A stretch of 63,786 nucleotides of DNA from positions 1 to 63,786 of the forward strand of contig JAKSBX010000092.1 in the NCBI GenBank assembly GCA_022360905.1, read 5' to 3'. How positions within the stretch are numbered: position 1 is the first letter of the stretch; each line of letters starts with the position of its first letter. This DNA comes from Chromatiales bacterium (lineage in GTDB: Bacteria > Pseudomonadota > Gammaproteobacteria > Chromatiales > Chromatiaceae). The position numbers and the translations under genes are program-made. Of the stretch, positions 10,765 to 58,861 are shown piece by piece. A model generated the notes under the pieces. That model ran no database searches. It was given only the letters and a program-made list of their open reading frames with translations, and was not told the origin of the DNA.

Positions 10765-11967
10765 TCAAGCAGTGGCTGCCTCAGCCTCAGCCTGATCCTT
10801 ACCGGCCCAGAGCATGGCATTGCCATCGACACCGACGGATCTGGCCCGACCACTGGTCTTGGCAGTGTACATACGATGATCGGCCAGTTCGATCTGTGCC
10901 TTCCAGTCTTTCACCTCGTCTTCCTGAACCTCTGCCACACCAATACTGGCCGTCACCGGTCCGCCTTCCGGACGAACCCCGACACCGGCCGTCATGATTC
11001 GACTCACAACCTCATTCGCTTCCCGGGGGTCAGCGGTAGGCAATACCACAACAAACTCTTCACCACCCCAGCGAATCACGCTATCCCCTTTACGCACACA
11101 CTTACAGATCTGCTCTGATGCGGTCTTAAGCACCTTATCCCCGACATCGTGTCCGTAGGTATCGTTGACCGCTTTGAAATTATCCAGGTCGAAGTAGAGA
11201 ATCGACATCGACCCACCCCCCATGGAAGCCAGTCGAAACTGCAGATCGAGCACTTCTATGCCGGCGCGCCGGGTGAGCATACCGGTGAGCACGTCATAAC
11301 TGGCCCGACTGACCTGTGAGAGCATATAGCGCAACTGAGTCAAGGAGGAGAACAGCGCCACCCCGAGTATCAGGATCAGCAGCCACATAGTGGAAACCGC
11401 CTGGGGTATTTCCGCTTCGCTGCCGGGAAATGCAGACACCAACGTGACCAGAAACATGGGCACGGCATAGACCAGGAACTCAACCAGGGTCAAAGGAAAG
11501 AGGGTTAATCCGGCCACCATCACAAAGGGCAGCAAGCCATACAGCCCGGCGATAATCTGCTCCTGGCTGGTGAGTGGATAGTCAGCAATCCAATAGCCTG
11601 AAGCGAGATAGAAAAGTGGTGTTACCGCCAACATACCCGCCAACAGCAGGCGTGCCCGTTTCATGGTCGGTTCCCGACGGGATAACCAGGCCAGGAGAGC
11701 GAAAACCACTCCGGATATGGCTCTGATTGTCAGCAGGCCGCCCCAAAGGGCACTGGGCAGAAAAAGCAGATCGATGACAGACCAGGCAGGTACCAGAATT
11801 GCGAACACAACGCAAAAGAAAAAGACCCGACTTTGAATAATCGTAGCCCGATGCCTGGAGATTGGTAAACCGTGTTCCTTGGTGGTGAACAACTCGTAAA
11901 GTTGATCCTTCGTATATATCCCTAATGATTCGCTGATCGTAATATACATTTTCTGAAAGATGGTCAT
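10765..11967 (-). CDS. Membrane-bound diguanylate cyclase (GGDEF)
   Basis: 400 residues from ATG 11967 (a GTG five codons upstream is the alternative). The N-terminal half has about six hydrophobic segments (about residues 50-220), a membrane sensor module. The C-terminal GGDEF domain keeps the catalytic GGEEF motif and the metal-binding YFDLDNFK segment. An inhibitory I-site RKGD lies five residues before GGEEF, so product inhibition by c-di-GMP is expected. It makes cyclic-di-GMP from two GTP. It converges on the ABC exporter operon with an 11-bp gap and appears monocistronic. Confidence 0.9.
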   Translation of the reverse strand: MTIFQKMYITISESLGIYTKDQLYELFTTKEHGLPISRHRATIIQSRVFFFCVVFAILVPAWSVIDLLFLPSALWGGLLTIRAISGVVFALLAWLSRREPTMKRARLLLAGMLAVTPLFYLASGYWIADYPLTSQEQIIAGLYGLLPFVMVAGLTLFPLTLVEFLVYAVPMFLVTLVSAFPGSEAEIPQAVSTMWLLILILGVALFSSLTQLRYMLSQVSRASYDVLTGMLTRRAGIEVLDLQFRLASMGGGSMSILYFDLDNFKAVNDTYGHDVGDKVLKTASEQICKCVRKGDSVIRWGGEEFVVVLPTADPREANEVVSRIMTAGVGVRPEGGPVTASIGVAEVQEDEVKDWKAQIELADHRMYTAKTSGRARSVGVDGNAMLWAGKDQAEAEAATA

Positions 11968-12345
11968 TCCGTTTAGCCCCACAACATTGTGGACGTCACT
12001 ATAGCGCCTTTGTTCTGGATTTCTTAATTGTTAACCAAGCAACCAATGATCCAGATCAACAGACCTATCCATAGCGTCCACACAAACACCACCGATCAAT
12101 GTGCTCAACCGGCATGTCTAAACAATCGATTCCAGAAAGACAATAAAACCAACCCGTTATTCTACACGATTTTATTGATTCTTCCGCGAAGAAATCCGCA
12201 TTTTGGTCTATATTTCACTTAAACTGGATTGCATGGATTGTGGTCATCGATTCTCTGTCAGGACAAGGACAAGCAGGCAATAACAGAATATTAGAAATAT
12301 AGAATAATCGATAAAACGAAGATCAGGAAAGCTACGGAGAGACGC
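11968..12345. other. Intergenic region between divergent genes
   Basis: About 380 AT-rich bases holding the promoters of the diguanylate cyclase gene and of the acyltransferase gene. The latter has a clear GGAGAGACGC ribosome-binding site before ATG 12346. No gene and no strong repeat seen. Confidence 0.5.
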
Positions 12346-26748: not shown

Positions 26749-29700
26749 ATGACGAAAATCATCTTGTCAGCCGCACGCTATCCAGCCTGGGTGATCGGGG
26801 CACTTTTCTGTGTTACGGCACTAGCCGTCAGCCATCTACCTGAACTGCGTGTGGAAATCACCGCCGAAGGCATGATGATCAATAACCCCCCTGCACTCGC
26901 CGACTATCAACGTACCATGGATACCTTCGGTAGCGAGAACGTCACCATCGTCTACCTGGAAGATCCAAATCTGTTTGAAGCTGAAAACCTCAAAGCGATC
27001 CAGCAGGCTTTGGGGGTGATTGAGAAGATTCCACAGGTATCGCGTACGGTCAGCCTGTTCTCAGTACGCTATCTGCGTACCGTTGATGGTTATGTTCATA
27101 CCAACCCCTATTTAAAACCCATACCGGAAAACCGCGAAACCCTACAACCCCTGATTGAGGCTGCACTCCTCAACCCGCTGATAGAAAGAAACCTGCTCTC
27201 CCAGAGCGGCACTGTCATGGCGATCAATCTCTTTTTCGATCTGGAGAACTACCACCGCGGTTTCGATGAGCAGGTTTCGCTGGCCCTGGATGAAGCCATT
27301 GAGCCACTACAGAAACGTTTTCGCAGAGTCTTTCACCTGGGAGACCCTTCGGTTCGTTCAGCCATCTCAGAGCAGATCCGCTCCGACCAGCTGCTGATTC
27401 TACCACTTGCCCTGGCGATGCTGATTTTTACCCTGGCGATCACTCTGGGTAACTGGAAAGCGCCTTTGATACCGCTGTTCACGGCAGGCATGAGTGTGAT
27501 CTGGACCCTGGGCTTGATGGCCGCCATCGACATACCCGTGAACGTGATGACCTCAATTGTACCGGCCCTGCTGATCATCGTGGGTTCAACCGAGGATATT
27601 CATCTGCTCTCCGAGTATCAGGCGGCCATTCGCAAAGGCAAAAGCAACCAACTGGCACTCAGTCTAATGGCTAAATACATGGGCATGGCCATCCTTTTGA
27701 CCTTCGCCACAACGGCACTGGGATTTCTTTCAATCTCGATCAATCGAATCGACCTGTTACAACAGTTCGGCCTGATCAGTGCCATGGGGCTGGCGATGAA
27801 CTTTGTGATTACCACTACCCTGGTTCCCGCCTCCCTGCAGCTGGCCAGACATTACGGCCTCAACATTCTGTCAACCACCCAACGCCCATACGCGCAGTTC
27901 TCCACCCATCTCTATCAACAGCTCTCCCGCTATCCCAAAACCATCATCAGCTCGATTCTGCTGTTGATGTCGGTCTGTCTTATCTGGGCAAGCCAGATCA
28001 ACATCAACAACAATGTCATGGACTACTTCGACCAATCGTCGGAGTTGCCCGAACAGGCCGACCTGTTACATCAAAATCTATCCGGCATGCAGGCCCTCTC
28101 AATTGTGTTGAGTGGCACCCAGGGTACCTTCCTCCAAGTACCCTATCTTGAGGAACTGCAGAGACTCCAGGACTACCTGCAAGAGACGGAGCGGTTCGAC
28201 AAAAGCTTCTCCTTTGCCGACTTCATTGCTGTGGTTCACAGCGGTATCGACAATGAATGGCCCGGCACCATCTATCTGCCGGCGCGTAACGAAGTCGTCA
28301 AGGAGTACATGTCCCTGCTGGATCACGTCAACGCCGAAAGCTTTGTCTCTTCCGACTACAGCCAGGCGCGTATTCTGGTACGCCATGCCATCAGCTCTTC
28401 CCATGAACTGAATCGGGTGGTTGAAGAGATCAAGAGCTACGCAGAAACCTGGATGGACCCCACGCTGAAGATGATGATCACCGGAGGCAGTTACCTCAAC
28501 AGCCAGGCCGTGGATTACATGGCGGATGGCCAGGCAAAATCCCTGTTGCTGATGCTGCTGGTAATCTTTCTGCTGATCACACTGCTGTTCATGAACTTGA
28601 AAGCCGGCTTGATCGCTGTGATCGCCAATGTATTTCCCATTGTGGTGTTGTTCGGCGTCATGGGCATGACCGGCATTGCCCTGGATACCGGTACCACCAT
28701 GGTTGGTGCCATCGCCCTGGGTATCTGTGTCGATCACACCATGCATTTCATGGTGCGCTACCAACGTTTGGCGACCAACTTCCGCTCTGAATCGGATGCC
28801 CTGCTGCAAGTCATCCAACAGGAGTCGACACCGATCATAGCCACAGCACTCGCTCTGGCCGCAGGCTTTCTCACATTAACCTTTTCCAACTTCCCACCGG
28901 TATCTTTATTTGGAGTATTGAGTGGCTTGGTCATGTGCCTGGCCCTGGTTGGAACCTTCGTCCTGATTCCGCTGATGCTGCGCAACACGCGCCTGATTTC
29001 GGTGTGGAGCGTACTCTCCCTTCACTTAAGGCGAGATGTACTCGACAAGTGTCCGCTATTCAAAGGTATGCGACCCTGGCAGGTGAGACAACTGGTAGCC
29101 CTGAGCCGTATCAGAGAGTATCAGGCGGATGAAGCGATTCTGCTGCAAGGCATGAAATACGACACCATGCTGGTACTGCTCAAGGGGCAGGCTGAAGCCT
29201 GGCATACCCGCGCCGACGGCTCCACCTTTCAGCTCACCACTTATCAGCCCGGTGGCGTATTCGGGGTAACATCGCTGGTTTCCAACCGGGAGCGTCAGGC
29301 CGATGTGGTGGCCGTCGGTAAGGTGCAGGCCCTGTCATTCAGGTGGGACGGTATTCACCGGATTGCCCGACTGTTTCCCCGTATCGCTTCCCGCTTTCAC
29401 GAAAACCTCTCCACAACCATTGCCCATCGGCTGCTGCATGAGCCTTACGATCTATCCTATCAGGATGATATGTCCGGCCTCTACAGCGCCACATTCATTG
29501 AAAAACTGTTGGCCTTTACGGCCGAGAAAGCACACCGATACGAAGAACCGCTCTGCCTGATCATCCTCAAAATCGAAGGCGAGGATTTCATCATTGAAAA
29601 CCACGGCAGACAAGTGCTGAGATGGCTGCTTCATGAGTTCACTCAAGCGATCAATCAGGTATTACGGAAAGTCGATCTGCTCTCCCGTTGGGGAACAGGA

Positions 29701-29934
29701 GAGTTCATCATCATATTACCAAGAACAGATCACAGCACGCTGAATGAGATTGCCTGGCGCTTGAAGCAGAGTCTTAACGAGATGAATTTCGGGGTAACCA
29801 AAGGTGTGACCCTAGAGGCCCGCTGCGCTCACCTGAAGCGAGGTGATACAGCGGAATCACTGATCAAACGCGCAAAATCGAGTCAACCGATCTGGCAATT
29901 GACCCAACTGAAGAACAAGGAAAAGCGCGCTTAA
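26749..29934 (+). CDS. RND/MMPL transporter fused to cNMP-binding and degenerate GGDEF domains
   Basis: 1061 residues from ATG 26749 (GGGAG site eight bases upstream; a TTG 45 bases earlier is weaker). Residues 1-750 form an MMPL/RND-superfamily transporter: a first membrane helix (about 10-30), a periplasmic domain, five to six helices (about 210-390) with GSTEDIHLL, a second periplasmic domain, and another helix block (about 595-745) with GICVDHTMHFMVRY. Residues about 763-885 are a cyclic-nucleotide-binding-like domain (CPLFKGMRPWQVRQL; PGGVFGVTSLVSNRERQADV), but the usual phosphate-binding Glu is Val840. Residues about 895-1050 resemble a GGDEF domain with GTGEF (982-986) instead of GGDEF and a lost metal-binding Asp (LKIEGEDF), so cyclase activity is unlikely. 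It stands alone. Domain limits are by eye. Confidence 0.85.
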   Translation: MTKIILSAARYPAWVIGALFCVTALAVSHLPELRVEITAEGMMINNPPALADYQRTMDTFGSENVTIVYLEDPNLFEAENLKAIQQALGVIEKIPQVSRTVSLFSVRYLRTVDGYVHTNPYLKPIPENRETLQPLIEAALLNPLIERNLLSQSGTVMAINLFFDLENYHRGFDEQVSLALDEAIEPLQKRFRRVFHLGDPSVRSAISEQIRSDQLLILPLALAMLIFTLAITLGNWKAPLIPLFTAGMSVIWTLGLMAAIDIPVNVMTSIVPALLIIVGSTEDIHLLSEYQAAIRKGKSNQLALSLMAKYMGMAILLTFATTALGFLSISINRIDLLQQFGLISAMGLAMNFVITTTLVPASLQLARHYGLNILSTTQRPYAQFSTHLYQQLSRYPKTIISSILLLMSVCLIWASQININNNVMDYFDQSSELPEQADLLHQNLSGMQALSIVLSGTQGTFLQVPYLEELQRLQDYLQETERFDKSFSFADFIAVVHSGIDNEWPGTIYLPARNEVVKEYMSLLDHVNAESFVSSDYSQARILVRHAISSSHELNRVVEEIKSYAETWMDPTLKMMITGGSYLNSQAVDYMADGQAKSLLLMLLVIFLLITLLFMNLKAGLIAVIANVFPIVVLFGVMGMTGIALDTGTTMVGAIALGICVDHTMHFMVRYQRLATNFRSESDALLQVIQQESTPIIATALALAAGFLTLTFSNFPPVSLFGVLSGLVMCLALVGTFVLIPLMLRNTRLISVWSVLSLHLRRDVLDKCPLFKGMRPWQVRQLVALSRIREYQADEAILLQGMKYDTMLVLLKGQAEAWHTRADGSTFQLTTYQPGGVFGVTSLVSNRERQADVVAVGKVQALSFRWDGIHRIARLFPRIASRFHENLSTTIAHRLLHEPYDLSYQDDMSGLYSATFIEKLLAFTAEKAHRYEEPLCLIILKIEGEDFIIENHGRQVLRWLLHEFTQAINQVLRKVDLLSRWGTGEFIIILPRTDHSTLNEIAWRLKQSLNEMNFGVTKGVTLEARCAHLKRGDTAESLIKRAKSSQPIWQLTQLKNKEKRA

Positions 29935-31130: not shown

Positions 31131-31364
31131 CTGTAATCCTCTCTCTGCATACGCTTAGGAACAAGCAGCATAAGCGACTCTCCGTCGATAATTAACACCG
31201 CTATGGGTAAGTTAACTAACTTTCACTTTGTCCTACTGAACAGATCACGCCTGATCAATCCCAAGATCATACTTTCAGATTCTGACTTGAAAGCACGGAC
31301 TGCAAACAGACCAGGCCCCTTCTATACTTCTGAAATATCCCTATTTGTTGTCGCGGAGAAACAG

Positions 31365-32168
31365 ATGGATGCCACCCTAAAAAGGCTGATCAAGTATGGC
31401 TCAAGAGGTGATGATGTCGTACAGGTTCAGCAGTGCCTGAATCGTGCTGTTTCAACAAAACCGGAATTGACTACCGATGGTATCTTTGGTGCCAAATCTA
31501 CCGCCAGAGCCGAACAATTCCAACGTAGCAATCAGCTGGCGGCTGATGGGATCATCGGTCCAAAGACCTGGGAAAAGCTGATCGCTTTCCTGAAAAACAT
31601 CATCGACACACCGCCAACCGATAAAGACAAGCATAAAGAGATTCGTCAACGAGTCCTGTTGGAAGCCGGAAAGCTGGTTGGCAGTGTGGATTTCACGCAG
31701 CTGATCGGTGGCAGACCGAAAGGTATCGATATTGTCAAAACCATCTTTAAGGAAGCCGCAAATGTAACCCTGCAGGATGAGAACTTCAAAGATCCATTCA
31801 GCAAAGCCTGGAGCCCCCAGCCTTTCATCAGCGGCCAGAAAAAGAGCTGGTGCGGGATATTCTGTGTCTACTGTTATCGCAAGGCGAGCATAACAACCGT
31901 CAGGTGGAACCTGAATATCGGCGCCCCGGTCGGCAACATCGGCTTGAACAGTTGGAGCACACAATTCGTCCAGGCGATCAAACTGGCGGACATCGGGGCT
32001 GTCGCCACTCGCCAGCACCATTTCCTTATCGAAAAGGTCGATCCGGGCAACCCATTCACACCGCGGCTCAACACCATTGACGGCAATCTATTGGGAGGCA
32101 AAATCCAGCGACGCAGCGGATATCACCAGGTGGAAAAAGACAATTTCAATTATTACTCATTGAAATAG
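31365..32168 (+). CDS. Peptidoglycan-binding protein with CHAP/NlpC-like domain
   Basis: 267 residues from ATG 31365, preceded by GGAGAAACAG; the longer reading from 31203 has no ribosome-binding site. No signal peptide is seen. Residues about 8-75 are a PG_binding_1 domain (LIKYGSRGDDVVQVQQCLN... TDGIFGAKSTARAEQFQRSNQLAADGIIGPKTWEKL). The rest carries KSWCGIFCVYCYRKA with a candidate catalytic Cys and a later ATRQHHFLIEKV with His, the Cys-His layout of CHAP/NlpC amidases. Lack of a secretion signal is odd for a wall enzyme; it could be a spore-less lysis enzyme, a toxin-like effector or phage-derived. Confidence 0.7.
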   Translation: MDATLKRLIKYGSRGDDVVQVQQCLNRAVSTKPELTTDGIFGAKSTARAEQFQRSNQLAADGIIGPKTWEKLIAFLKNIIDTPPTDKDKHKEIRQRVLLEAGKLVGSVDFTQLIGGRPKGIDIVKTIFKEAANVTLQDENFKDPFSKAWSPQPFISGQKKSWCGIFCVYCYRKASITTVRWNLNIGAPVGNIGLNSWSTQFVQAIKLADIGAVATRQHHFLIEKVDPGNPFTPRLNTIDGNLLGGKIQRRSGYHQVEKDNFNYYSLK

Positions 32169-32528
32169 GGCGACTATTGAACATCGAGCCTCAAAAATAC
32201 CTGCACTAATCAACACTACAATCAATAAGTTACAGCCAAGCTAAAGAGGCCACCCGACAGCAATTCGTCAACCTACCCGCTAAAGACGGATAGCTTGAAA
32301 ACAGCTCAAACAAGCCGAAATTCCAATTATTCAAAACAGTGTCGAAATAATTTACAGACAACCGGTAATTTTACCTTGCTTTCTCACACCAACATGGACA
32401 ACTGATTGTAATTCTTAAAAAAATAAAATTTTGGCATCAATCATGCAATCAAGACCACCGTACAAGAAATGATCTTGTAACACTTTTTTCTAGCGCTTAT
32501 TTAACAACTATCCATAAAGGATGTTCCG
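32169..32528. other. Promoter region of the second PEP-CTERM gene
   Basis: AT-rich and gene-free; contains the sigma-54-like element at 32431-32449 and an AAAGGATG ribosome-binding site before ATG 32529. Nothing else is evident. Confidence 0.5.
32431..32449 (+). promoter_or_regulatory. sigma-54-like -24/-12 promoter
   Basis: TTGGCAT-CAATC-ATGCAAT. GG (32433-32434) and GC (32445-32446) are exactly ten bases apart. The -24 block is TGGCAT (consensus TGGCAC) and the -12 block ATGC (consensus TTGC), two mismatches in the core. It would give a leader of about 70 nt for the gene at 32529. Together with 776-791 it links both PEP-CTERM genes to RpoN. Confidence 0.6.
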
Positions 32529-33056
32529 ATGAAGAAATCACTCTTTTTTCTGGCCTGTTTAGTGATGCTTCTGCCCTTGAATAGTCAGGCAAATGTAATC
32601 AGGACCACGGGTTCCATTACGGATGGGGGACCTGGTTCGGTGTCTTATGTACTATTCGATCAAGATGCCGCTGCAAGAACCAGAATTGCCGTTAACTCGG
32701 ATGATTTCGACACAGAGATCTTTCTGTTCGAAAACGACGGCACATTAAACAGAAATGACCGGATTGCGCACAATGACGACCGCAACTTTCCGATCAATCT
32801 GAATTCGTTGATCAACAGAGTATTACAGGCAGGGAGCTATATCGTAGCCATCTCGGCTTACGATCTGACCCGAGGTGAGGCCGTCAGGGGGGTAAACCGA
32901 GGCGGCGACCAGTCCGGCTATGGTGACTACAGCATCAGAATTGCATCTAATGCCAACGTCAGATTCAGCAACGTCCCGGAACCTGCCACGCTCTCTCTGC
33001 TTGGCCTCGGTTTAGTAGGCCTGGGTTTTGCGAGACGTGCCAAACAAAAAGCCTAA
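32529..33056 (+). CDS. PEP-CTERM protein, DVUA0089-like
   Basis: 175 residues; signal peptide about 1-21 (ending SQA). The mature part resembles the pre-peptidase/DVUA0089 beta-sandwich: GSVSYVLFDQDAAARTRIAVNSDDFDTEIFLFENDG... LQAGSYIVAISAYDLTRGEA. The C-terminus is a textbook PEP-CTERM signal: VPEPATLSLLGLGLVGLGFARRAKQ. It should be cleaved by an exosortase after export. A strong terminator follows at 33075. Confidence 0.88.
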   Translation: MKKSLFFLACLVMLLPLNSQANVIRTTGSITDGGPGSVSYVLFDQDAAARTRIAVNSDDFDTEIFLFENDGTLNRNDRIAHNDDRNFPINLNSLINRVLQAGSYIVAISAYDLTRGEAVRGVNRGGDQSGYGDYSIRIASNANVRFSNVPEPATLSLLGLGLVGLGFARRAKQKA

Positions 33057-33074
33057 AAGCAAAGCCACTTGTTA

Positions 33075-33110
33075 AACACCAGGGGATTGAATATCTCCTG
33101 GTGTTTTTTT
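33075..33110 (+). terminator. Rho-independent terminator of the PEP-CTERM gene
   Basis: AACACCAGGGGA and TCTCCTGGTGTT pair with one wobble around ATTGAATA, followed by a run of seven T residues. It lies 20 bases after the stop codon. Confidence 0.88.
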
Positions 33111-33383
33111 ATTGCCGCCCCCAAAACGCTGACCTGTGACTGAACAATAATGGATCAGACAATCCTATAGCTGCTCATGTCTTAAGCCGGCACTCCAGAC
33201 TCTCATTGTCAAAACCCGACCACAAACTATCTTGGGTATGAACCAGAGAGTGAGCCAACAGGATTCTCGGTACCCCTTCAGCTCACCCACCCATTATTTC
33301 CGATTAAAGATCGAGTTATACACAGCAGAACCACCTCTCAGAACACTCTTATATTAAAAAAGATCATTGCAAAAAAACTACCG
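33111..33383. other. Gene-free spacer
   Basis: Short spacer downstream of the PEP-CTERM terminator and beyond the end of the ankyrin gene. No gene or clear repeat. Confidence 0.4.
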
Positions 33384-34307
33384 TTAGTCTGCCAGAATAG
33401 ATGGTTCGTTATTTTGCTCTTGCTCTACCTCATCTGAGGCGGTGTCAGTTTCAGTAAATGGCTCAAGGAGAGCAACCACAGTATCGCGATTGTTCTGTTT
33501 GGCACAATCCAAAGGCGTCTCCATCGCACCATTTTTGCCGATGAGATTTGCCCCATGATAAACCAGCTGTTCAGCAACCATTCTCCTGCCGTTGATAGCA
33601 GCAACATGCAGTGGACTGTTGTTTTCCTGGTTAACTTGATTTACATCTGGATTTTTCATCAACAGATAAGTGGCTACATCAATCCTCCCGTAAAGAGAAG
33701 CAAAATGGAGAGCGCTATTCCCGGATTCATCCCTTGCATTAATATCAGCTCCGTTGTTCAGCAAGACTTTTACAGCTTCCAAATTTCCATATTTAGTAGC
33801 ATGTATCAATGGAGTACCAATTTTTGTACCCGTTCCACTATCTACATTAGCGCCTTTGGCAAGAAGAATCTTCAAAAGATCACCACTGTTGACTATTCCA
33901 AATGCAGCACTGTGAAGTGGAGTAGCTCCCTCTTCATTGCTCGCATTCACATAGGCTCCCCTTGAAATAAGCAGCTTTGCCACTTGCGGCATTCCATTAT
34001 ACGCAGCCAAATGCAAGGGAGTTCTTCCAAGCTTTCCCTTTTCATTTACGTTTGCTCCACCCTTGATGAGATAGAGTGCAACATCTTTATGACCATTGTT
34101 GATTGCCATATGAAGTGGAGTAAATCCTTCGTAGACACCAGCCGCACTGTTTTTTTCATTGATAGAACCACCTTTACGTGACAAATCACGAACCTCAGCC
34201 AGGTTCCCCTCAAGCGCAGCAACATGGATGGATCCCATAGAGTTACATCCAGCTTGCAAAAACGTACTAAGAAGCAAAACAATAGACGTAAAAACAGATA
34301 GTTTCAT
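33384..34307 (-). CDS. Ankyrin-repeat lipoprotein
   Basis: 307 residues; start after GGGAGAG. Lipoprotein-like signal with Cys21 (FLQAGC). About seven ankyrin repeats follow, with clear TPLHxAxxxGxxxVAxxLxxxGAxVN units (for example GFTPLHMAINNGHKDVALYL, GRTPLHLAAYNGMPQVAKLL). The C-terminus is an acidic tail. Ankyrin repeats bind proteins; exported to the envelope it could be a scaffold or an interaction factor. It is the second gene of a pair with 34326-35351 (18-bp gap). The pair is AT-rich relative to its surroundings, suggesting transfer. Confidence 0.85.
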   Translation of the reverse strand: MKLSVFTSIVLLLSTFLQAGCNSMGSIHVAALEGNLAEVRDLSRKGGSINEKNSAAGVYEGFTPLHMAINNGHKDVALYLIKGGANVNEKGKLGRTPLHLAAYNGMPQVAKLLISRGAYVNASNEEGATPLHSAAFGIVNSGDLLKILLAKGANVDSGTGTKIGTPLIHATKYGNLEAVKVLLNNGADINARDESGNSALHFASLYGRIDVATYLLMKNPDVNQVNQENNSPLHVAAINGRRMVAEQLVYHGANLIGKNGAMETPLDCAKQNNRDTVVALLEPFTETDTASDEVEQEQNNEPSILAD

Positions 34308-34325
34308 TTAATCTCTCCCTGATCT

Positions 34326-35351
34326 TCAGTAGGATTGAGCAACGATGCCAGTTGGATTGTTACCCGGACATGAAACGATCATTCTTGCCCGGTCTGTCAT
34401 TTTGCAACTCTGGGAAAAAGTCTGTCCCGCATCAGGCAGACTTTGAATGGCCTTATTGTAAAAGGCGTCTACGAAACTATTATCGCTATTACTACCTATC
34501 ATATCTGTATCAGCAAGAGACTGATTTTTTTCTTCGCCACCTACCTCATTAATGGATTTATGTTTTACACCACCTATTGGGTCTTCAAACGAAGTGTGAG
34601 TATTATGCCAGACAAGATGTTTTGTCTTCACATTGGAGCAGATAAGATTCATCGTTTTTTCTTCCTGAAGCCCTCCGGTTGGCGCTCCACCAAGCATGAC
34701 AACCAGCACTTTCAAAGCCACATCCCCTGCTATCCTGCCTGCAGAGTAGCGCTTGCCCCATATCCTGGCAAAACAAACCGTATCTGCACCTGTAGTTTTC
34801 GCTATTGTGGAAACATTTTTAAATTCAGGAAAGTACACTAACAAACGATTCATACTTATATAGTCATTCAGCCTCTCAAACTCCTCTCTGACTGCAGCAC
34901 TAACCTTAGCATTCGATTTAATAACAGGATATTCAAAAACAGGCGCCGTACTTTCAACACGCCATTTATCAGCACCGGGATCTTTTGCGTCAAAATCGTA
35001 GACCCAATAGTCATCCGGACCACGCCAGTAATAGCCTACCCCAGCTGGATCCGCATGCACGACCTCATAACCTTTGCTTTCAAAAGCGCTTTTAAGCTTC
35101 GGTAGCGCATCTTCCAACAGGAGTTTGCTTGATGAGAGGCTAAGAGCAGCGTCTTTACCCCCCATTCTAGGCCGCATAACTTTTGCTTCACCAACAATTG
35201 CGATCTTTTTGATTGGGTTTTTGTGTAGAAGCGTATCCGATGCTCTGTAATGCACTCGCGTATCTTGAGTGGCACAACCGATAAGATTGGATAGAAGAAA
35301 GGGAGTTAAAATGAGAAAGATAAAATGATTACACAGTTTTCCTGAATCCAT
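34326..35351 (-). CDS. Lipoprotein of unknown function, paired with ankyrin protein
   Basis: 341 residues; start after a strong GGAGGATTG site. Signal with lipobox LIGC (Cys26). The mature part starts TQDTRVHYRASDTLLHKNPIKKIAIVGEAKVMRP, then has a SKLLLEDALPKLKSAFESKGYEV helix, and an FARIWGKRYSAGRIAGDVALKVLVVMLGG segment that may be a short hydrophobic insert. The KIAIV...L...LEsKGY arrangement recalls curli-type or DUF799-like lipoproteins that compute a periplasmic alpha/beta domain, but I cannot name the family. Upstream gene of the ankyrin pair. Confidence 0.75.
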   Translation of the reverse strand: MDSGKLCNHFIFLILTPFLLSNLIGCATQDTRVHYRASDTLLHKNPIKKIAIVGEAKVMRPRMGGKDAALSLSSSKLLLEDALPKLKSAFESKGYEVVHADPAGVGYYWRGPDDYWVYDFDAKDPGADKWRVESTAPVFEYPVIKSNAKVSAAVREEFERLNDYISMNRLLVYFPEFKNVSTIAKTTGADTVCFARIWGKRYSAGRIAGDVALKVLVVMLGGAPTGGLQEEKTMNLICSNVKTKHLVWHNTHTSFEDPIGGVKHKSINEVGGEEKNQSLADTDMIGSNSDNSFVDAFYNKAIQSLPDAGQTFSQSCKMTDRARMIVSCPGNNPTGIVAQSY

Positions 35352-42855: not shown

Positions 42856-45675
42856 TTAGCTCTGCGCAACACAGTAGTTATTTTTGCTTTCCCGCTTCAC
42901 CTCATACATAGCCCTATCGGCAACCCGCACCAGGGTTTCCCTAGAATCGCCATGATCGGGGTAGAGCGCGACGCCCACACTGATGCTGACTTTCAGCGCA
43001 TGACCTTCGTACATATAGGGGCGTCTCACTGACTCGACGATCTGTTCCGAAACACGTTTGATATCGGATAAGATCTTAATGGAATTCAATATAATCAGGA
43101 ACTCATCTCCGCCCATGCGCGCAACGGTATCGACTTCTCTCACATTGCTATTCAGTCGAGCCGCCACTTCTTTTAGCAAGGCATCACCCGCATCGTGACC
43201 ATACTCATCGTTAATCATCTTGAATCCGTCGAGATCGATAAACAGCACGGCCATTTTGCACTTCTCCCGTTTCGCCTCGGCAATCGCCATCTCGATACGG
43301 TCTTCCGCCAAACGCAGGCTGGCGAGACCGGTGAGAGCGTCATGGGAAGCCAGGCGCTGGATCTCCAAAGCGGCTGCTTTACGCTCGGTAATGTCATTCC
43401 ACATACAGAATATGGCTGCGTGGCCGCGGTATGGAATACGCGTCAGGGAAACCTCGACAGGAAAGGTCGTACCATCGTATTTGATATGCTCCCACTCAAA
43501 ACGGTTATAACCGTATTTCATCGCCTGATCTATCATTGCCCTGGCCTTCGCATCGGAGGAGATCCCATCGGGCTGGAATTGCGGCGACAACTCCCAAGGC
43601 GGCGTATTGATCAGTTGTTGCGGACTCGCGTAACCCAGCAGACGGGATGCCGCCTGGTTGGTCATGACGAACTGATTGTCCTCAATCAGCCACATTGGAT
43701 CTTCCGAAGTTTCAAAGATCAAACGGTATTTCTCTTCACTCTCGCCCAACTGCTTGTTGGCCTCATTCAGCCGCTCATTGATCCTGGCCAGATCGACTGT
43801 CCGCTCTCTGACGCGACGCCGCAGGATCATATTCCAGGCCAGAATGGTAGCTATCGCAAACACCGCAGTCGCAGTCAGTAGAACGATCCACTGTTCACGT
43901 GACAGTTGCCACCATGCCCGACCCGCCATGTCGAAACGCACCCATCGATTCATGATGGCACGCCGCTCTTGCTCAGTGATCAACCTCAGCCCTTTATCGA
44001 GAATATGGCGCAGCATCGGCCAGTCTTTGCGCACCGCCAATGACCAGCGATAACGGTAACCGGACTCGCCGGCCACTTTCAGGTTGCTGATCCCCTCCCG
44101 TTCCATGAAATAGGTGGAGGTGGCCATGTTGCCGATCATGGCATCTACCTCACCGAAAGAGACCTTACGTAAGGCACTGCGTATATCGGGGGCCACGTCG
44201 AGCTGAATTTCCGGATAGTTCTCTAACAGAAAGTCATGCGCGGCATACCCCGAGACAACGGTTACCCGTTTTCCGATCAGGTCCGGCATGCCCTGCACTC
44301 CCGTCTCTTCACGCCGCGTCATGATGACGGCGGGCACATCGATCATGGGCTGGGTGAAAGCCATATAGGCCAGCCGCTGTTCCGTGGGGCTGGCCGCTGC
44401 CCACATGTCCACCTCGCGACTTTGTGCCTGGGCGACCGCCTGATCCCAGTTTTCCAGACGCACAATGTCAAAACGGAATCCGATCTTATTTTCCAGTTTT
44501 CGTATGTAGTCAGCAGCCAGCCCATGATAAGCGCCGCTTTCATCAAAATATTCGATCGGGGGAAAGTCGGGATCCGGGGCGATCCGTATCACGGGGTGCT
44601 GCTCCAGCCAGATTCTCTCCTGTTGTGTAAACAGGGCCCGGTTATGATTGACCTGGGAACTGCCCAAGGGGAGATGGGCGGGATCGATTCCAAAACGGTC
44701 CAACTGGATACTGTCGAACATCAACCGATTCACGACGGTCTTGATGACCGGCATCTCCAATACCGGCTTTTCATTGAGAATCTCCGCCACCAAACTCCCG
44801 GCGGTGCGCCCCTGGCGATAACCGCTGACGACATAGCCACCGACCACACCCTGACCGACACGAAACTCCTGCATGCTATAGACGGGTGCCCTGCTCGTGC
44901 TGGAGATCAAACGGGAACTCTCTTTGGGAGGGATGAAGAGGTCCAGACCGTCCCGGTAGTAGTTACCGAGAAGGACGATGCTGTCCGCCGGTAGCGCAGC
45001 CAATTGCGCCTCAAGCTCGGCAATCGGCATCTTTTCCGCATAACGGACTGGAACCTTGAGATCCAGGCCATTGAGCTGCTGACGTATATCCGCTTCGGTG
45101 GCCAGTCCGGTCGGTAAGTGATCATTGATCACCAATACCTGTTGGGTATTGGGATGCAGTTGCAGCGCCAGCGATAAGGTACCTTTGGCATCGTAGGTCC
45201 CTGTCACCCCGGTATAATTTGAATACCCCTCAAGTTGTTCGTCCTTGAAGAAATTAATACCGCAGAATACCACCGGCACACCGGGAAAAAGCACCTCGCC
45301 GTGACGGCGCATAAAGTCAAAGGCATTGTTATCCGTGACGACTATGGTTGCGAACCGGTTTCCTGCGTATTTGCCGCGTAGAAAGTCATGGATCTGCTGT
45401 TCATATTTCGACGTAAATGGAATGCGCTTGGTGTCCATGAACTCCGAAAAGATTTCGATCTCATCGGTTTCACCTCGCAGCATATCTCGCACACCCCGTT
45501 CAATATCAGCGACCCAAGCCATGCTTGAATGGTATGAGTTGAGAATCAATACCTGGCGGGACTGCTCCTGTTCCGCCGCAGAGAGTACAGGAAAAAGCAA
45601 CATAAAACAGAGCAGCAGCCGGGGCATGAGTACCCAATTAAATAGACAGGCCCCATCAGAATAATCACTTTGCAT
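42856..45675 (-). CDS. Double periplasmic-sensor PAS-GGDEF diguanylate cyclase
   Basis: 939 residues. After an N-terminal export segment (about 10-34) comes an ABC_sub_bind-like domain (about 38-320, RQVLILNSYHSSMAWV... VVFCGINFF). A second, SBP_bac_3-type domain (about 345-575, VIRIAPDPDFPPIEYF... GAYHGLAADYIRKLENKIG) is followed by a membrane helix (WIVLLTATAVFAIATILAW, about 590-610), a PAS domain (about 640-760) and a GGDEF domain with intact MGGDEF and an I-site REVD five residues before it. It should couple two periplasmic ligand sensors to c-di-GMP synthesis. The start at 45675 has only a weak ribosome-binding site; MPRLLLCF, 16 codons in, is an alternative. Monocistronic. Confidence 0.88.
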   Translation of the reverse strand: MQSDYSDGACLFNWVLMPRLLLCFMLLFPVLSAAEQEQSRQVLILNSYHSSMAWVADIERGVRDMLRGETDEIEIFSEFMDTKRIPFTSKYEQQIHDFLRGKYAGNRFATIVVTDNNAFDFMRRHGEVLFPGVPVVFCGINFFKDEQLEGYSNYTGVTGTYDAKGTLSLALQLHPNTQQVLVINDHLPTGLATEADIRQQLNGLDLKVPVRYAEKMPIAELEAQLAALPADSIVLLGNYYRDGLDLFIPPKESSRLISSTSRAPVYSMQEFRVGQGVVGGYVVSGYRQGRTAGSLVAEILNEKPVLEMPVIKTVVNRLMFDSIQLDRFGIDPAHLPLGSSQVNHNRALFTQQERIWLEQHPVIRIAPDPDFPPIEYFDESGAYHGLAADYIRKLENKIGFRFDIVRLENWDQAVAQAQSREVDMWAAASPTEQRLAYMAFTQPMIDVPAVIMTRREETGVQGMPDLIGKRVTVVSGYAAHDFLLENYPEIQLDVAPDIRSALRKVSFGEVDAMIGNMATSTYFMEREGISNLKVAGESGYRYRWSLAVRKDWPMLRHILDKGLRLITEQERRAIMNRWVRFDMAGRAWWQLSREQWIVLLTATAVFAIATILAWNMILRRRVRERTVDLARINERLNEANKQLGESEEKYRLIFETSEDPMWLIEDNQFVMTNQAASRLLGYASPQQLINTPPWELSPQFQPDGISSDAKARAMIDQAMKYGYNRFEWEHIKYDGTTFPVEVSLTRIPYRGHAAIFCMWNDITERKAAALEIQRLASHDALTGLASLRLAEDRIEMAIAEAKREKCKMAVLFIDLDGFKMINDEYGHDAGDALLKEVAARLNSNVREVDTVARMGGDEFLIILNSIKILSDIKRVSEQIVESVRRPYMYEGHALKVSISVGVALYPDHGDSRETLVRVADRAMYEVKRESKNNYCVAQS

Positions 45676-51090: not shown

Positions 51091-51401
51091 AAGCGAGCGA
51101 TTTGGCCGCCAGACACGGCAGCATCATCACCAGGGGATGCATCCAACTGGGGAGTGTCAATTCACACCAGGGCTCGAAAGCGTGCATAGGGGATTCGATA
51201 TGTTAGGGCAGGTCTGCTCTCACCCCCCCTAAGTAAGGATGTCTTGGGAAAACCGGACTATCAAATCAAGAATAAAAATCCTATAGCTTACTGTAATTCC
51301 TTGATGTTTAAAGTTACTGAGCCCCTGCCCGATAACTTTATAATAAATATGGCTATTTACCATTTCACTGATTGTAATTGCTGGTCTTCGAGGTAGATGC
51401 T
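51091..51401. other. Gene-free spacer upstream of the response regulator
   Basis: No gene, no strong repeat. An AT-rich stretch (51280-51375) likely holds the promoter of the following gene. Confidence 0.4.
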
Positions 51402-53993
51402 TTGCCGAGAGTTTTACTGATAGAGCACTCGCCAACCATCCGCCATATCCAGAGAAATCTCTTGATAAAGGCGGGTTACGAGGTTGAGGGCGATGCCGAC
51501 CACAAATCCGCCATTACACGCATCCGAGCCAGCTCAGATGACGGCGTGGTTTTTGATGCGGTTATGGTGGGCTGGCCCGCCGATTCCTCCATCGATGCAT
51601 CATCGCTCTGCTTAATGCTGGAGAGGCAAGCCCATGCCTCCCAGGTAATCATCGCCTTTGCCCATGAAGAGCATGAGCAGGTCGATGAGTGGGCGAAAAA
51701 AAGACCCAACTCGGCCTTCATGCTTTGGTCAGACTACAAGCACAGTGCCGATCGGCTCGCTAGCTTGCTGGCAGAAGCCAACAAGATGAAGACAAACCAG
51801 GCGGAGAGCCTGCCGGCGGTTCAGCCAATACGCGTGCTGTTTGTTGATGATTCCAGAACCGTCAGGGTCAAGTATAAGCGTCTCTTGAATGCCAATGGCT
51901 ATGAGACTGAAATTGCCGGCAATGTCGGCGAAGGCTTCAAAAAGGCCCTGGCGTCTCCCTTCGATATCGCGATCATAGATTACTTCATGCCGGACGCCAC
52001 AGGTGATGTGCTTTGTCAGAAACTCCGCGAAAACGAGACCACCGCATCCATCACTACCGCGATCATCACCGGCACCTATCTCGACAGGGCGATCAAGGAC
52101 TCTCTTGAAGCCGGCGCCGTCGAGTGTATGTTCAAGAATGAGAGCGATGACCTGTTTCTTACCCGTATCGATGCGATGAGCCGCCATATTCGTGCGCATA
52201 AATCGATCGAGATGGAACGTAAAAGGCTTGGCGGTATTCTCAGGTCGGTAGGGGATGGGGTCTACGGGGTCGATCCCAACGGCCATATCTCATTCGTCAA
52301 TCCCGCCTGCCGTCAGATATTGGGCTATGACTCTGAGGCGTTGTTAATCGGAAAATCGGCCTATGAACTGTTCCACTTCTCCGCTGACGAGGGCAGTCTC
52401 ATCGCACCGGAGCACTGTTTTCTTCAGAAGAGCTATGCAGATGGTGACAAGGTTCAGGCTAGGGAGACCATCTTCTGGCACAAATCCGGGCAGCCTATCC
52501 CGGTGGAGTGTACCGTCTACCCACTCACCATTGAGGGTAAGCGTGAGGGTTCGGTTGTCGCGTTTCGAGACATCTCGGAACATAAACAGCTTGAAGAAGA
52601 GCTACGTTGGCAGGCCGGCCATGATGTGCTGACCAAGCTACACAACCGGCGCTATTTCGAAGAGCAATTGACTCAGGAGGTAGAGCGGCTCAAGCGCAGT
52701 AATGAGGTCAGTGCATTGCTCTATCTCGACCTGGATCGTTTTAAGTATATCAACGACACAGCGGGCCATACTGCAGGAGACCATCTGCTGGTGGAGATCG
52801 CTCAGCAGATGAACCAGCGTCTACGCAAATCGGACATGCTCGCCCGCTTGGGCGGTGACGAGTTCGCCGTCATCCTGAGGAACGTTTCGAAGAACAGTGT
52901 TGAAGTCGTCGCTGAAGACTATCGTGAAATGCTCGATCAATATATGTTTATCTACAACGGCAAACAGTACAAGATCAACGGCACCATCGGTATCGCCTTA
53001 ATCGACAAGGATACAGCCTCTTCCAGTGAAGTATTGGCCAATGCGGATATTGCCTGTCATATCGCGAAGGGTGAGGGCCGAAATCGCACCCATCTGTTCA
53101 TTCCCGAGAACGATAACAAACAGGCGATGGACAAAGATTTGGGCTGGTCGTCACGGCTGCACAATGCGTTGGAGTCAGACCACTTGGCACTACACTTCCA
53201 GCCGATTATTCCGGTTGAACATATCCCTACTGCACTGATGTCAGATGCTAATGGACCGATCTATGAACAGCTCCTTCCTGTGGTACCCGAGGCATCGATA
53301 ATCAATGAGGTCTTACTGCGGTTGAACGATCCCTCCTGGGGTATGGTCTTCCCCGGTGCCTTTCTGCCGACCGCAGAACGCTTCAATATGATGGACAAGA
53401 TCGATGGTTGGGTGGTGAATGCCGCCCTTAGGAAACTCGCACAGTTACAAGAGCAGGGATATCCCGGTACATTCACCATTAATCTATCGGGACAGACGAT
53501 CACCAATATGGCGCTGATCGAGACGATCGAGGAGCTGGTCATTTCCCTTGCGATCGATTCCAGTAGGGTGATCTTTGAGATTACCGAGACTTCGGCGGTC
53601 TCCAATCTGGTCTCGGCCAATCAATTGATTTCGAGACTCAATACCCTGGGCTGTCGCTTTGCGCTGGACGATTTCGGCAGTGGCTTCTCCTCCTTCTCCC
53701 ATCTGAAAAATCTGCCGGTGGATTACGTCAAGATCGATGGTCTGTTCGTCAGAGGCGTGGCTTCGGATGCCGGGGACAGAGCGATCGTCCAGTCGATCAA
53801 CGATATCGCTCATTCACTGGGCAAGATGACGGTGGCGGAGTATGTGGAGAATGTTGAAATACTGAGTTTTCTGCACGAGATCGGCGTAGATTATGTGCAA
53901 GGACACCATCTGGCCCGTCCAATGGATATCTCTGAATTAAGCTCGAGTGCCGACTCCACTCGGCATCGCAATCCGTCACAGTCGCAAGCCTAG
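51402..53993 (+). CDS. REC-REC-PAS-GGDEF-EAL cyclic-di-GMP signalling protein
   Basis: 863 residues from TTG 51402, which has GAGG eight bases upstream; TTG 51378 is the longer choice. The first receiver (about 1-125) is degenerate: EH replaces the acidic pair and no phospho-Asp is evident (VMVGWP). The second (about 145-265) is canonical: FVDDS, phosphorylatable Asp in IIDYFMP, TG and FK. Then PAS (about 280-400), GGDEF with intact LGGDEF and I-site RKSD, and an EAL-like domain in which the EAL signature reads EVL but downstream NLS, DDFGSG and EITET motifs are kept. Whether synthesis or hydrolysis dominates cannot be told. Its stop codon lies inside the 66-bp palindromic element 53990-54055. 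Confidence 0.9.
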   Translation: MPRVLLIEHSPTIRHIQRNLLIKAGYEVEGDADHKSAITRIRASSDDGVVFDAVMVGWPADSSIDASSLCLMLERQAHASQVIIAFAHEEHEQVDEWAKKRPNSAFMLWSDYKHSADRLASLLAEANKMKTNQAESLPAVQPIRVLFVDDSRTVRVKYKRLLNANGYETEIAGNVGEGFKKALASPFDIAIIDYFMPDATGDVLCQKLRENETTASITTAIITGTYLDRAIKDSLEAGAVECMFKNESDDLFLTRIDAMSRHIRAHKSIEMERKRLGGILRSVGDGVYGVDPNGHISFVNPACRQILGYDSEALLIGKSAYELFHFSADEGSLIAPEHCFLQKSYADGDKVQARETIFWHKSGQPIPVECTVYPLTIEGKREGSVVAFRDISEHKQLEEELRWQAGHDVLTKLHNRRYFEEQLTQEVERLKRSNEVSALLYLDLDRFKYINDTAGHTAGDHLLVEIAQQMNQRLRKSDMLARLGGDEFAVILRNVSKNSVEVVAEDYREMLDQYMFIYNGKQYKINGTIGIALIDKDTASSSEVLANADIACHIAKGEGRNRTHLFIPENDNKQAMDKDLGWSSRLHNALESDHLALHFQPIIPVEHIPTALMSDANGPIYEQLLPVVPEASIINEVLLRLNDPSWGMVFPGAFLPTAERFNMMDKIDGWVVNAALRKLAQLQEQGYPGTFTINLSGQTITNMALIETIEELVISLAIDSSRVIFEITETSAVSNLVSANQLISRLNTLGCRFALDDFGSGFSSFSHLKNLPVDYVKIDGLFVRGVASDAGDRAIVQSINDIAHSLGKMTVAEYVENVEILSFLHEIGVDYVQGHHLARPMDISELSSSADSTRHRNPSQSQA

Positions 53994-54084: not shown

Positions 54085-57000
54085 TCAGGGAGCACGGTCG
54101 TTTGCCTGCGCCCGATCCGGCTGCAGCTGCATCTCTTGTTTCAGTTGTTGACCACGTTGCAGCGGTGAACCTGTATGACGAGCCAGCAGATGGTAGGCAA
54201 CCGGTACGATATAGAGAGTAAACAGGGTTGCCGCGATCACACCCGCCAGGATCACGGTACCGATCACTGTCCTGGTTTCCGCACCAGCCCCTGAGGAGAG
54301 CAGCAGCGGAATGGACCCTGCAGCTGTGGTTATGCCGGTCATGATGATCGGGCGGAAACGTACATCTGCCGCCTCGATCAGTGCCTCATTGAAACCACGC
54401 CCCCGGTCTCTCAGCTGATTGGCAAACTCGACGATCAAGATGCCGTTCTTCGCCGCCAGGCCGACCAGCATGATCAGACCGATCTGACTGTAGATATTCA
54501 GGGTCTGATCAGTCAGATAGAGTCCGCACAACGCCCCGGCCATCGCCAGCGGAACCGTCAGCATGATCACCAGCGGATGCATCCAGCTCTCAAACTGCGC
54601 CGCCAGTACCAGATAGACCACCACCACGCCGAGAATCAATACGAATAATATCGACCCACCGGCACTTCGGTAGTCCCGGGACTGGCCTTTGTAATCGACC
54701 GCCGCATGAGCGGGCAGATGCTCCTTGACCAGATTTTCCAGATAGTCGAGCGCATCACCCAGTGCCAGACCATCCTGCAGATTGGCCTCGATGGTAATCG
54801 CCCGCAAGCGGTTGTAGCGATTGAGCTTGATGGAGTCGGCCATCTCCTGCAGCCTGACCAGATTGGAGAGCTGGATCAGCTCGCCGTTGTTGGCGGAACG
54901 CACATAGAGGTGACTCAGGTCGCTGGGGGTGCGTTGATCTTTTCGGTCTCCTTCCAGGATCACATCGTACTCCTCGCCCTCTTCGATATAGGTCGTCACC
55001 CGTCGCGATCCCAGCATGGTCTCCAGCGTGCGCCCGATACTCTCAACCGTCACCCCGAGCTGGGCCGCCCGGTCATAGTCGATAACCACCTTGAGCTGGG
55101 GTTTGGTCTCTTTGTAGTCCCAGTCGATACCCTGCAGTCCCGGATTCTGTTTATCGATCTCCTGCAACAGAATATCCCGCCAACGCGCCAGCTCTTCATA
55201 GGTACCGCCGCCGATGACAAACTGCACCGGTTTCTGAATTCGCCGACCAAAACCCTGCCGCATCACCGGAAAGGCCTTGACCCCCGGCAGGTCGGAGAGC
55301 TTTTTGCGCAGTTCGGCCATGATCTCCCAGGCCGAACGGCGGGCGTCCCAGTCATTCAGCACATTGATCACGATACCGCCGTTGAAAATGGCGAAGTTAC
55401 TGAAGGTCCGCGGCGCCCTGACCAGCAGGCGGGTGATCTCTCCCGACTCCACATAGGGCATCATGCGCCGCTCGATCTCATCCATGTAGGTCTTCATATA
55501 GTCGTAGGAAGCACCCTCCGGACCATTCACCAGCAGATAGAAGGCACCCCGATCCTCTTTGGGGGCATATTCATCGGGTATCTGCTCAAACAACCAGTAG
55601 GCAACGCCGATGATGCCGGCAAACAGCAGCAACACGATCCAGCTATGCTGCATCACCCCCTTCAGGCTGCGGATATAGACGCTCCTGATGCGCTTGAACA
55701 GACCATCTACCCGTTGACTCAGACGATTTCTATCGTGCTGCCCTTGCGGCAGAATCTGCGAAGCGAGCATAGGGGAGAGCGAGAGCGCCACCAGGCTGGA
55801 GAAGAACACAGCGGCGGCCATGGTCAGGGCAAACTCGGCAAACAGTCGACCGATATCCCCGCCGAGAAAGGCGATCGGGGTGAACACCGCCACCAAGACG
55901 AGGGTGGTGGAGACCACCGCGAAGGCTACCTGCCGGGCACCACGAAAGGCCGCCACCAGCCGGCTCTCCTGATAACTCTCCATACGGCGGTGGATGTTCT
56001 CCAGCATGACGATCGCATCATCCACCACCAACCCAATCGCCAACACCAGCGCCAGCAGGGTGAGGATGTTGATGGTAAAGCCCAGCACCAGCAGGACCAG
56101 GAAAGTGGCAATCAGAGAGACCGGTACGGCAACCGCAGGAACGATCATCGCCCGCAGACTACCGAGAAACAGAAAGATCACCGTGACCACCAGACCGGTG
56201 GCGATGAACAGGGTTTTATAGACCTCGTCTATGGCCTCTTTGATGAACACCGAGCTATCGAAGCTCTGCTTGATCTCCATCCCCTCCGGCAGCGACCGGT
56301 TGATGATCAGCCGTTCCGCCTTGGCCGCTTCGGCAACGGTCAGGGTATTGGCGGTGGATTGCTTGATGATGCCGATACCGACCATCGGCACGCCGTTACC
56401 ACGAAAAAAGGTACGGGTCTCCTCGGCGCCCTTCTCCACCCGGGCCACCTCACCCAATCGAACCAGGTAGCCGTCATCGCCACGAGCCAGTACCAGTTGG
56501 GAGAAATCCTCTTCGGTATAAAAACTGCGATCGACCCGTACCGTGAAGGCCCGATCGACCGAGTCGATACTGCCGGCAGGCAGCTCCAGGTTACCGCTGC
56601 GCAGGGCCTGTTCCACATCGGACACCGTCAGATTGCGAGCCGCCAGGGCTTGTCGGTCGATCCAGACGCGCATCGCAAAGGTCTGACCTCCCCCCACCCG
56701 CACCCGGGCCACCCCATCCAACACCGAGAACCTGTCCACCAGGTAACGCCGGGCATAGTCCGACAACTCCGGTACGGTCATCCGGTCACTCACCAGATTG
56801 AGCCACATGATCACCGTTTCATTGCTGTCCACCTTCTGGATCTCGGGCGGATCAGCCTCCAGGGGCAGATTGTCGAGTATCGCCGACACCCGATCACGGA
56901 CATCGTTGGCGGCCGCATCGATATCCCGGGCGACATCGAACTCGATAGTCACCACGGAACGACCGTCTTCACTCACAGAGGAGATGAAGCGAATCCCCTC

Positions 57001-58301: not shown

Positions 58302-58861
58302 CTTTTTGAATCCATTGTTTTGCATATTCAACCAACAACCGGAGCTATTCTCTGTCAGCCCTATCATGGCGCGGGATAGGTTAGCCTGCCACCATCATGC
58401 ACCATTTTGGAGCGTCACCCCCCGGTGAGAATAATCAGCCCGACTTTGTGTGGCTGAAACCAACCCGCTGATTTCACGCATCAGCATGAGACAGTACACT
58501 AGTATGACCCGCTAATTGCGTTAAAGTCCTTCGACTCTGTAGATCCCGAGCCAATTGACCCTGGCAAACCGCACCAGAGGCCCTGTCCGCAGGGAACTTC
58601 AACCTAACCAACAACCCGGGTTTGGCACAGAACCTGCTCTTAGATTGCAACGTTAGCAGATCATGCCAGAACATCGGTGCAATGAAAAAACAGACCGTTT
58701 CAGGAAAGAGAGATCAAATCCCAAACATCGACAACCACAGTTGCCTGCGCCATGAGCGAAAATTCATCTTACAAAATCATGATTCGACCTGCCTCAGATC
58801 ATTCTGTTTTGGCCACACAGCGCTATGCTGATCTATCAGATCAATATTGCTGGAACTTCTC
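58302..58861. other. Gene-free region with half MITE-like element
   Basis: About 560 bases upstream of the efflux operon and of the HAD phosphatase gene. It contains the 37-bp repeat at 58466-58502. Short ORFs here have no coding character. Confidence 0.5.
58466..58502. repeat. Second copy of the 37-bp repeat
   Basis: It matches 54019-54055 with three mismatches in the same orientation and ends in ACAGTACACTAG. The left half of the palindrome is absent. With 53990-54055 it brackets the whole RND efflux operon, a 4.4-kb interval. Confidence 0.7.

Follow-up and report, generated by a model that had tools for sequence, protein, structure and literature searches.

What does a membrane transporter gain from two signalling domains at its end, and which second messenger, if any, might they still recognise? 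This question is raised by a gene on a contig of a Chromatiales bacterium (JAKSBX010000092.1, assembly GCA_022360905.1), the whole 63,786 nucleotides of which we call the window. At positions 26749–29934 of the plus strand, the strand of all features of this gene given below, one open frame joins a resistance-nodulation-division (RND)/MMPL transporter, a cyclic-nucleotide-binding domain (cNBD) and a GGDEF domain. We class its 1061-residue product as an RND exporter that bears a sensor tail for second messengers, part of a wide family of RND-cNBD transporters. The three domains, a broken GGDEF active site next to a conserved inhibitory-site triad, the loss of the cyclic nucleotide monophosphate (cNMP) pocket in the window's clade and purifying selection on the tail are established at the level of sequence. 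Our leading reading, which we hold tentatively and a little short of an even call, is that the protein is a proton-driven, HAE3/HpnN-like exporter of a hydrophobic or lipid substrate, whose activity would be set by cyclic di-GMP (c-di-GMP) through a catalytically dead GGDEF receptor that replaced an older control by cyclic nucleotides.

The frame runs without interruption through 1061 codons, from the ATG at 26749 to the stop codon ending at 29934; an alternative TTG start at 26704 would give a protein of 1076 residues. Profile searches placed each domain above its Pfam cut-off: MMPL (PF03176) in two stretches (E = 9.7e-36, 123.8 bits against a cut-off of 20.5), cNMP_binding (PF00027) at residues 789–872 (E = 6.1e-14, 52.2 against 27.5 bits) and GGDEF (PF00990) at residues 904–1044 (E = 7.1e-16, 58.8 against 23.8 bits). 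All three were matched in each of the 13 tailed proteins scanned, that is, the window's and 12 relatives. The tailed proteins had been selected as open frames, so that the openness of their frames is by itself no evidence; a frameshift or assembly artefact is ruled out by full-length copies, 91–92% identical, in separate assemblies of three other species. The nearest relatives are filed under the titles Candidatus Thiodiazotropha or gamma proteobacterium symbiont of clams. Copies of full length from other assemblies share 76–92% identity, the same order is present at 36–59% in other Gammaproteobacteria, and it recurs down to 36–42%. The initial annotation had described a single gene with these three domains and knew of no named system with their order. 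The gene and its domains are borne out, and we found no description, in the open-licence PubMed Central literature, of an RND or MMPL protein joined to a cNMP- or cyclic-nucleotide-binding domain or to GGDEF. Among the NCBIfam matches listed for four members (for one of them, the best 25 of 37), none spans the RND part and the cNBD as a unit.

The GGDEF domain (residues 904–1044, positions 29458–29880) carries GTGEF at residues 982–986 (29692–29706) in place of the GG[DE]EF signature, and Lys941 sits at the aligned metal-binding aspartate, which rules out, as judged from sequence, an active diguanylate cyclase. None of the 24 tailed proteins compared has an intact signature, and what stands in its place varies between lineages (GTGEF, GVGEF, SRGRF, SDKQY, QEHVF, PDSSY, HNGRM and others). 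By contrast with the active site, the residues of the c-di-GMP inhibitory site (I-site) are kept, and the domain is thus not degenerate throughout. An RxxD motif, R973-K-V-D976 (29665–29676), on which the initial annotation is silent, aligns with RAID of PleD, and Arg1004 (29758–29760) aligns with the arginine of PleD IAERIR; we take the residues aligned with Arg973, Asp976 and Arg1004 to be R359, D362 and R390 of the PleD I-site. PleD is a catalytically active, product-inhibited diguanylate cyclase, and the window protein differs from it in having no signature and a lysine at the metal position. A parallel is offered by degenerate GGDEF receptors of c-di-GMP such as PelD, PopA and CdgA. CdgA of Bdellovibrio is reported to have GVNEF, preceded at a distance of five residues by RxxD, to show no cyclase activity and to bind c-di-GMP with an apparent Kd of about 2 uM (PMC3271064). 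The window protein is arranged likewise: its signature is broken, RxxD lies five residues ahead of it and all three I-site residues are intact, so that CdgA-like binding, measured there, is predicted here from sequence. The PelD_GGDEF model itself was matched by one of the 13 tailed proteins (E = 2.8e-4). The earlier suggestion of a catalytically degenerate domain, acting as a receptor rather than an enzyme, is supported by these observations.

Among 114 aligned proteins, 24 have a readable GGDEF tail; L142, whose tail is cut by a contig end, is a probable 25th and was left out of the I-site counts. Taking one protein per lineage (less than 60% identity), the triad Arg-Asp-Arg is present in 9 of 10 lineages, and its three columns rank within the top six of 151 for conservation, the mean pairwise identity of the domain being 24%. 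As a control we used the 78 GGDEF matches of the window's own genome, of which the window's was set apart, 70 were aligned by model and the remaining seven were read by eye. The triad was found in 18 of the 60 model-aligned domains with an intact signature and in 2 of the 10 with a broken one; four of the seven read by eye have a broken signature, one of them with the triad (a weak match, E = 0.008), which brings the broken-signature total to 3 of 14. Three partial pieces were left out of this control; L312 and L317 miss part of the triad columns, and L313 (signature intact, RxxD present, third arginine absent as judged by eye) would change the intact count to 18 of 61 if included. Fisher tests, which treat rows as independent when this is true only in part, gave p = 0.003 for the tailed lineages against the broken-signature domains and p = 0.0005 against the intact ones; with all 24 tailed rows the values were 0.017 and 0.003.

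These data bear on a second explanation, in which both tail domains are ligand-free scaffolds that dimerise the pump or dock a partner, for example an active diguanylate cyclase or phosphodiesterase, and regulation occurs by protein contact. It would account for the loss of both the catalytic signature and the cNMP pocket glutamate, and for the one genus that has lost the triad and still keeps its GGDEF domain. It also fits the observation that the cNBD, despite its missing glutamate, is the most conserved part among the window's protein and L033, L034 and L035, with 96–100% identity and a ratio of nonsynonymous to synonymous substitution rates (dN/dS) of 0.025–0.061. A scaffold, however, has no need for three inhibitory-site residues kept in a domain otherwise at 24% identity, and we consider this explanation unlikely, if far from negligible.

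The cNBD itself spans residues 758–886 (29020–29406). This stretch alone matches PF00027 with E = 2.5e-15, and chains of protein kinase A regulatory subunits and of the CRP family are matched as well. The family alignment (105 rows, 100 of them with a cNBD, after six duplicate loci and three fragments were left out) confirmed the proposed Val840 (29266–29268) in place of the phosphate-cassette glutamate, as it did GTGEF, and placed Arg849 (29293–29295) in the column of the cassette arginine. The Glu-Arg pair of a ligand-binding cNBD is thus incomplete in the window. Over the 100 cNBDs, the two columns hold Glu and Arg in 50 and Asp and Arg in 26; the other 24, the window's clade included, have different combinations, and loss of the pocket is consequently not general. 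Valine occupies the glutamate column in seven of seven Thiodiazotropha-type tailed copies and in L129 and L136, and L049 has alanine there; L133 keeps the glutamate and has lost the arginine. The arginine column holds Gln or Ser in three among the Thiodiazotropha-type copies and two sister lineages with valine. On the tree of the RND part, pocket loss among the tailed proteins is a single change. The view that both signalling domains are degenerate therefore holds for the missing pocket glutamate and the broken GGDEF signature, and has to be qualified by the retained Arg849, the persisting I-site residues and the many relatives with a complete cassette.

Where such a cNBD might obtain its ligand is suggested by the gene neighbourhoods. 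We scanned 103 distinct RND-cNBD loci, fragments included, and five RND-only loci, with flanks of up to 6 kb, some of them cut by contig ends. At six loci the gene next to the transporter gene encodes a class III nucleotidyl cyclase. In L121, L122 and L123 this cyclase gene lies upstream on the same strand with a gap of 0 or an overlap, matches PF00211 at about 1e-64 and has a weak MASE6 match; L138 and L141 have a divergent Cache-HAMP-cyclase neighbour (Cache under its cut-off), and in L190 the cyclase is upstream on the same strand with a gap of 91. A seventh case, identified by coordinates beside an RND fragment in genome G026, was placed with the first lineage by 65% identity, so that the seven loci represent three lineages. 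About 0.25 cases would be expected (P of three or more, 0.002), an estimate made for 96 loci from the mean density of 308 PF00211 matches in 76 genomes at an assumed 0.95 genes per kb, the final count being 103 loci and the G026 case. All six cyclase-neighbour loci in the alignment have cNBDs with both Glu and Arg. No cyclase was found beside the five RND-only loci, a number too small for comparison. As an observation apart, L121, L122 and L123, from a Chromatiales metagenome-assembled genome and tubeworm symbionts, each form a candidate operon of a cyclase-gated pump with an intact-pocket RND-cNBD gene.

It could be proposed from this family background, with its intact-looking cNBDs and cyclase neighbours, that the window's cNBD still senses a ligand, a cNMP or another small molecule, in spite of the Glu-to-Val change at 840, and that the GGDEF domain only relays the signal. 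Retention of Arg849 and purifying selection on the cNBD agree with such a role. The uniform valine of the Thiodiazotropha-type tailed copies and two sister lineages, together with the further replacement of the arginine in three, rather fits a disused pocket, and the four PF00211 matches of the window's genome are all on other contigs; we regard continued sensing by this domain as improbable.

The tail is maintained under purifying selection, with dN/dS near that of the RND part. In eight pairs of Thiodiazotropha-type copies, dN/dS was 0.074–0.106 for the RND part, 0.025–0.094 for the cNBD and 0.044–0.117 for the GGDEF domain, one GGDEF value being saturated. That the tail is a decaying remnant without function could be argued from RND-only paralogs that apparently lost the tail and nest among tailed proteins, and from the faster divergence of the GGDEF part (63% identity against 79% for the RND part between the window's protein and L036; 84% against 97% between L037 and L038). 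The low GGDEF dN/dS in seven of the eight pairs, close to that of the RND part, speaks against decay. Synonymous divergence (dS) between L037 and L038, moreover, is 0.15, 1.13 and 1.49 for the RND, cNBD and GGDEF parts, respectively; such strong differences within one gene suggest recombination, and the faster change there accompanies this tenfold higher dS. Decay is accordingly an improbable explanation. Least probable of all is that the degenerate domain senses GTP in the manner of FimX, whose degenerate GGDEF motif mediates GTP stimulation of its phosphodiesterase according to a review (PMC8846402), for the signature is not conserved between the tailed lineages (GTGEF, SRGRF, SDKQY, QEHVF, PDSSY and HNGRM among them).

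The transporter part (residues 1–751, 26749–29001) consists of two MMPL repeats. The final hydropathy peak ends at residue 752, and from this and the RND fold the tail should be cytoplasmic. Putative proton-relay acids lie in a helix of the first repeat, Glu282-Asp283 (GSTEDIHLL, 27592–27597), each kept in 90% or more of 59 sequences, and in a helix of the second, Asp662 (GICVDHTMH, 28732–28734), invariant in all 59. Acids kept in both repeats are consistent with proton-coupled export of a hydrophobic substrate by the window's pump. Among the NCBIfam matches listed, the best for the RND part is HAE3 (TIGR00921, E = 1.3e-64), at 218.6 bits under the cut-off of 351.9, so that the protein resembles this family of two-repeat pumps, which includes HpnN for hopanoids and AmeD for monoterpenes, without scoring as a member. 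The hopanoid-type substrate considered in the initial annotation found no support, as the HpnN models scored far under their cut-offs (TIGR03480, 103.5 against 751.85 bits; NF052374, 47.9 against 1100 bits); we know of no HpnN with a tail of this type.

A parallel with AmeD is found in distant members of the family. A LolA-like gene (PF17131) lies directly upstream on the same strand, with a gap of at most 130, in 19 of the 32 loci whose RND protein is less than 33% identical to the window's (one RND-only locus and one fragment included), and in none of the 82 loci at 33% or above (six duplicates included). AmeD, a pump of 787 residues, is likewise encoded with AmeB of the LolA superfamily, according to its description (PMC6394551); at that length it is too short for a tail of the window's type. 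The window's gene has no LolA-like gene beside it, and its genome has eight PF17131 matches elsewhere. By analogy, the LolA-like neighbours and the AmeB/AmeD pair support export of lipids or other hydrophobes as a probable function of the family.

How widely the family is distributed was estimated from samples of genomes. With the window protein as query, matches were found in 21 of 56 genomes of relatives at E = 1e-60 and in 17 of 369 genomes of the class at 1e-100, the own genome being counted in both, and in 9 of 41 genomes of another order at 1e-160. With a relative as query, and again counting the own genome, there were matches in 55 of 210 genomes of the order at 1e-120 and in 20 of 299 of the phylum at 1e-90. 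Many of these are RND-cNBD proteins of about 900–960 residues, and some are RND only. L216 and L217, two Thiodiazotropha paralogs without a tail, nest inside the tailed clade when the tree is built from the RND part, and the tail was apparently lost in both. Several Thiodiazotropha genomes have such a second, tail-less copy, giving paired pumps with and without the sensor tail. One further pump relative, L305, has twelve in-frame stops and is apparently a decayed copy.

Taken together, a cNMP origin of the tail is suggested by the 50 of 100 cNBDs with Glu and Arg and by the cyclase neighbours in three lineages, and the c-di-GMP receptor reading by the triad in 9 of 10 lineages, the uniformly broken signature, the low dN/dS of the tail, the 78 GGDEF matches in the window's own genome and the precedent of CdgA. 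In the wider family, cAMP or cGMP, made by a neighbouring class III cyclase where one is present, would bind the cNBD and alter the activity of the pump. The window's branch would have lost cNMP sensing, and the appended GGDEF domain would serve as its c-di-GMP receptor. Binding at Arg973, Asp976 and Arg1004 would then move the two-domain tail relative to the last transmembrane helix, the change at the I-site passing through the cNBD, and turn the pump on or off. The broadest form of this proposal, to which we give rather less credence, is that a widespread, undescribed family of RND exporters of outer-membrane lipids or hydrophobes may be switched by the cAMP or cGMP of a neighbouring cyclase, and that the window's branch may have swapped messenger, to c-di-GMP, by way of a dead GGDEF domain behind a broken cNMP domain. 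To our knowledge, receptors of the CdgA type are not fused to RND transporters elsewhere. Membrane channels with a cNBD (for example PDB 5v4s, matched by the window's cNBD) resemble the fusion in placing this domain on a membrane protein, with a channel as output and not an RND pump, and Bd1971, a cNBD-EAL protein, has a phosphodiesterase output instead. Fusions of cNBDs with c-di-GMP proteins are known, according to the same review (PMC8846402).

Several observations weigh against control by c-di-GMP. Over all tailed proteins the triad is present in only 16 of 24, the losses falling within one genus (five without the first arginine, two with lysine at the third place and one cut there). RxxD alone is common in the window's own genome (55 of 60 intact and 6 of 10 broken GGDEF domains), and we no longer count it as proof that c-di-GMP is bound. 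Every tailed protein has at least one of the two pockets: 11 have a broken cNBD pocket and all of these the triad, eight have no complete triad and all of these the cNBD pocket, and five have both. The tree, however, gives one change of each kind; we rejected reciprocal loss as statistical evidence, and the pattern is only suggestive. The nested tail-less paralogs show that the pump can do without its tail. No neighbour gene is common to the tailed members beyond the closest species, and linkage to c-di-GMP genes is sparse, with a GGDEF gene within 6 kb in one of 17 tailed loci (one duplicate included, some flanks cut).

At the other loci, linked GGDEF genes were found in 10 of 97 (duplicates included), seven of the ten in one genus. 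In L146, L148, L151, L152, L153, L155 and L158, all of one genus, a divergent GGDEF gene with an EAL-like motif lies about 1.1–1.6 kb upstream of the RND-cNBD gene, and Asp replaces Glu in the pocket that the latter encodes (FGDVAL). In three of the eight RND-only loci of the first neighbourhood set (L041, L042 and L043), an intact-GGDEF gene lies divergently, about 320–360 bases from the tail-less pump. No operon partner was found in the window: the upstream gene encodes a HAD-type hydrolase and the downstream one an LTXXQ protein, an arrangement that recurs in the closest species alone, other tailed members having different neighbours. Elsewhere in the window are three further GGDEF proteins (10768–11982 and 42859–45675 on the minus strand, 51378–53990 on the plus strand), one with SBP_bac_3 and PAS and one a REC-PAS-GGDEF-EAL protein, as well as an AcrB-type RND pump with an HlyD-type adaptor (54088–58367, minus strand). 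Positions 31203–35351 hold a PG_binding_1 protein, a PEP-CTERM protein, an ankyrin-repeat protein and a 341-residue protein that matches no Pfam family at E = 0.001.

RND pumps are mostly regarded as controlled through their expression. If the proposed control by c-di-GMP is correct, such a pump, with the receptor for a second messenger as part of itself, would be regulated once it has been synthesised. Natural variants within the family, namely an intact cNBD with an adjoining cyclase, both pockets, a broken cNBD with an intact I-site, and loss of the tail, would allow the change of messenger to be tested. Export of envelope lipids or hydrophobes by a pump of this kind would be tied directly to lifestyle signals, cAMP or cGMP and c-di-GMP, in symbiotic as well as free-living bacteria.

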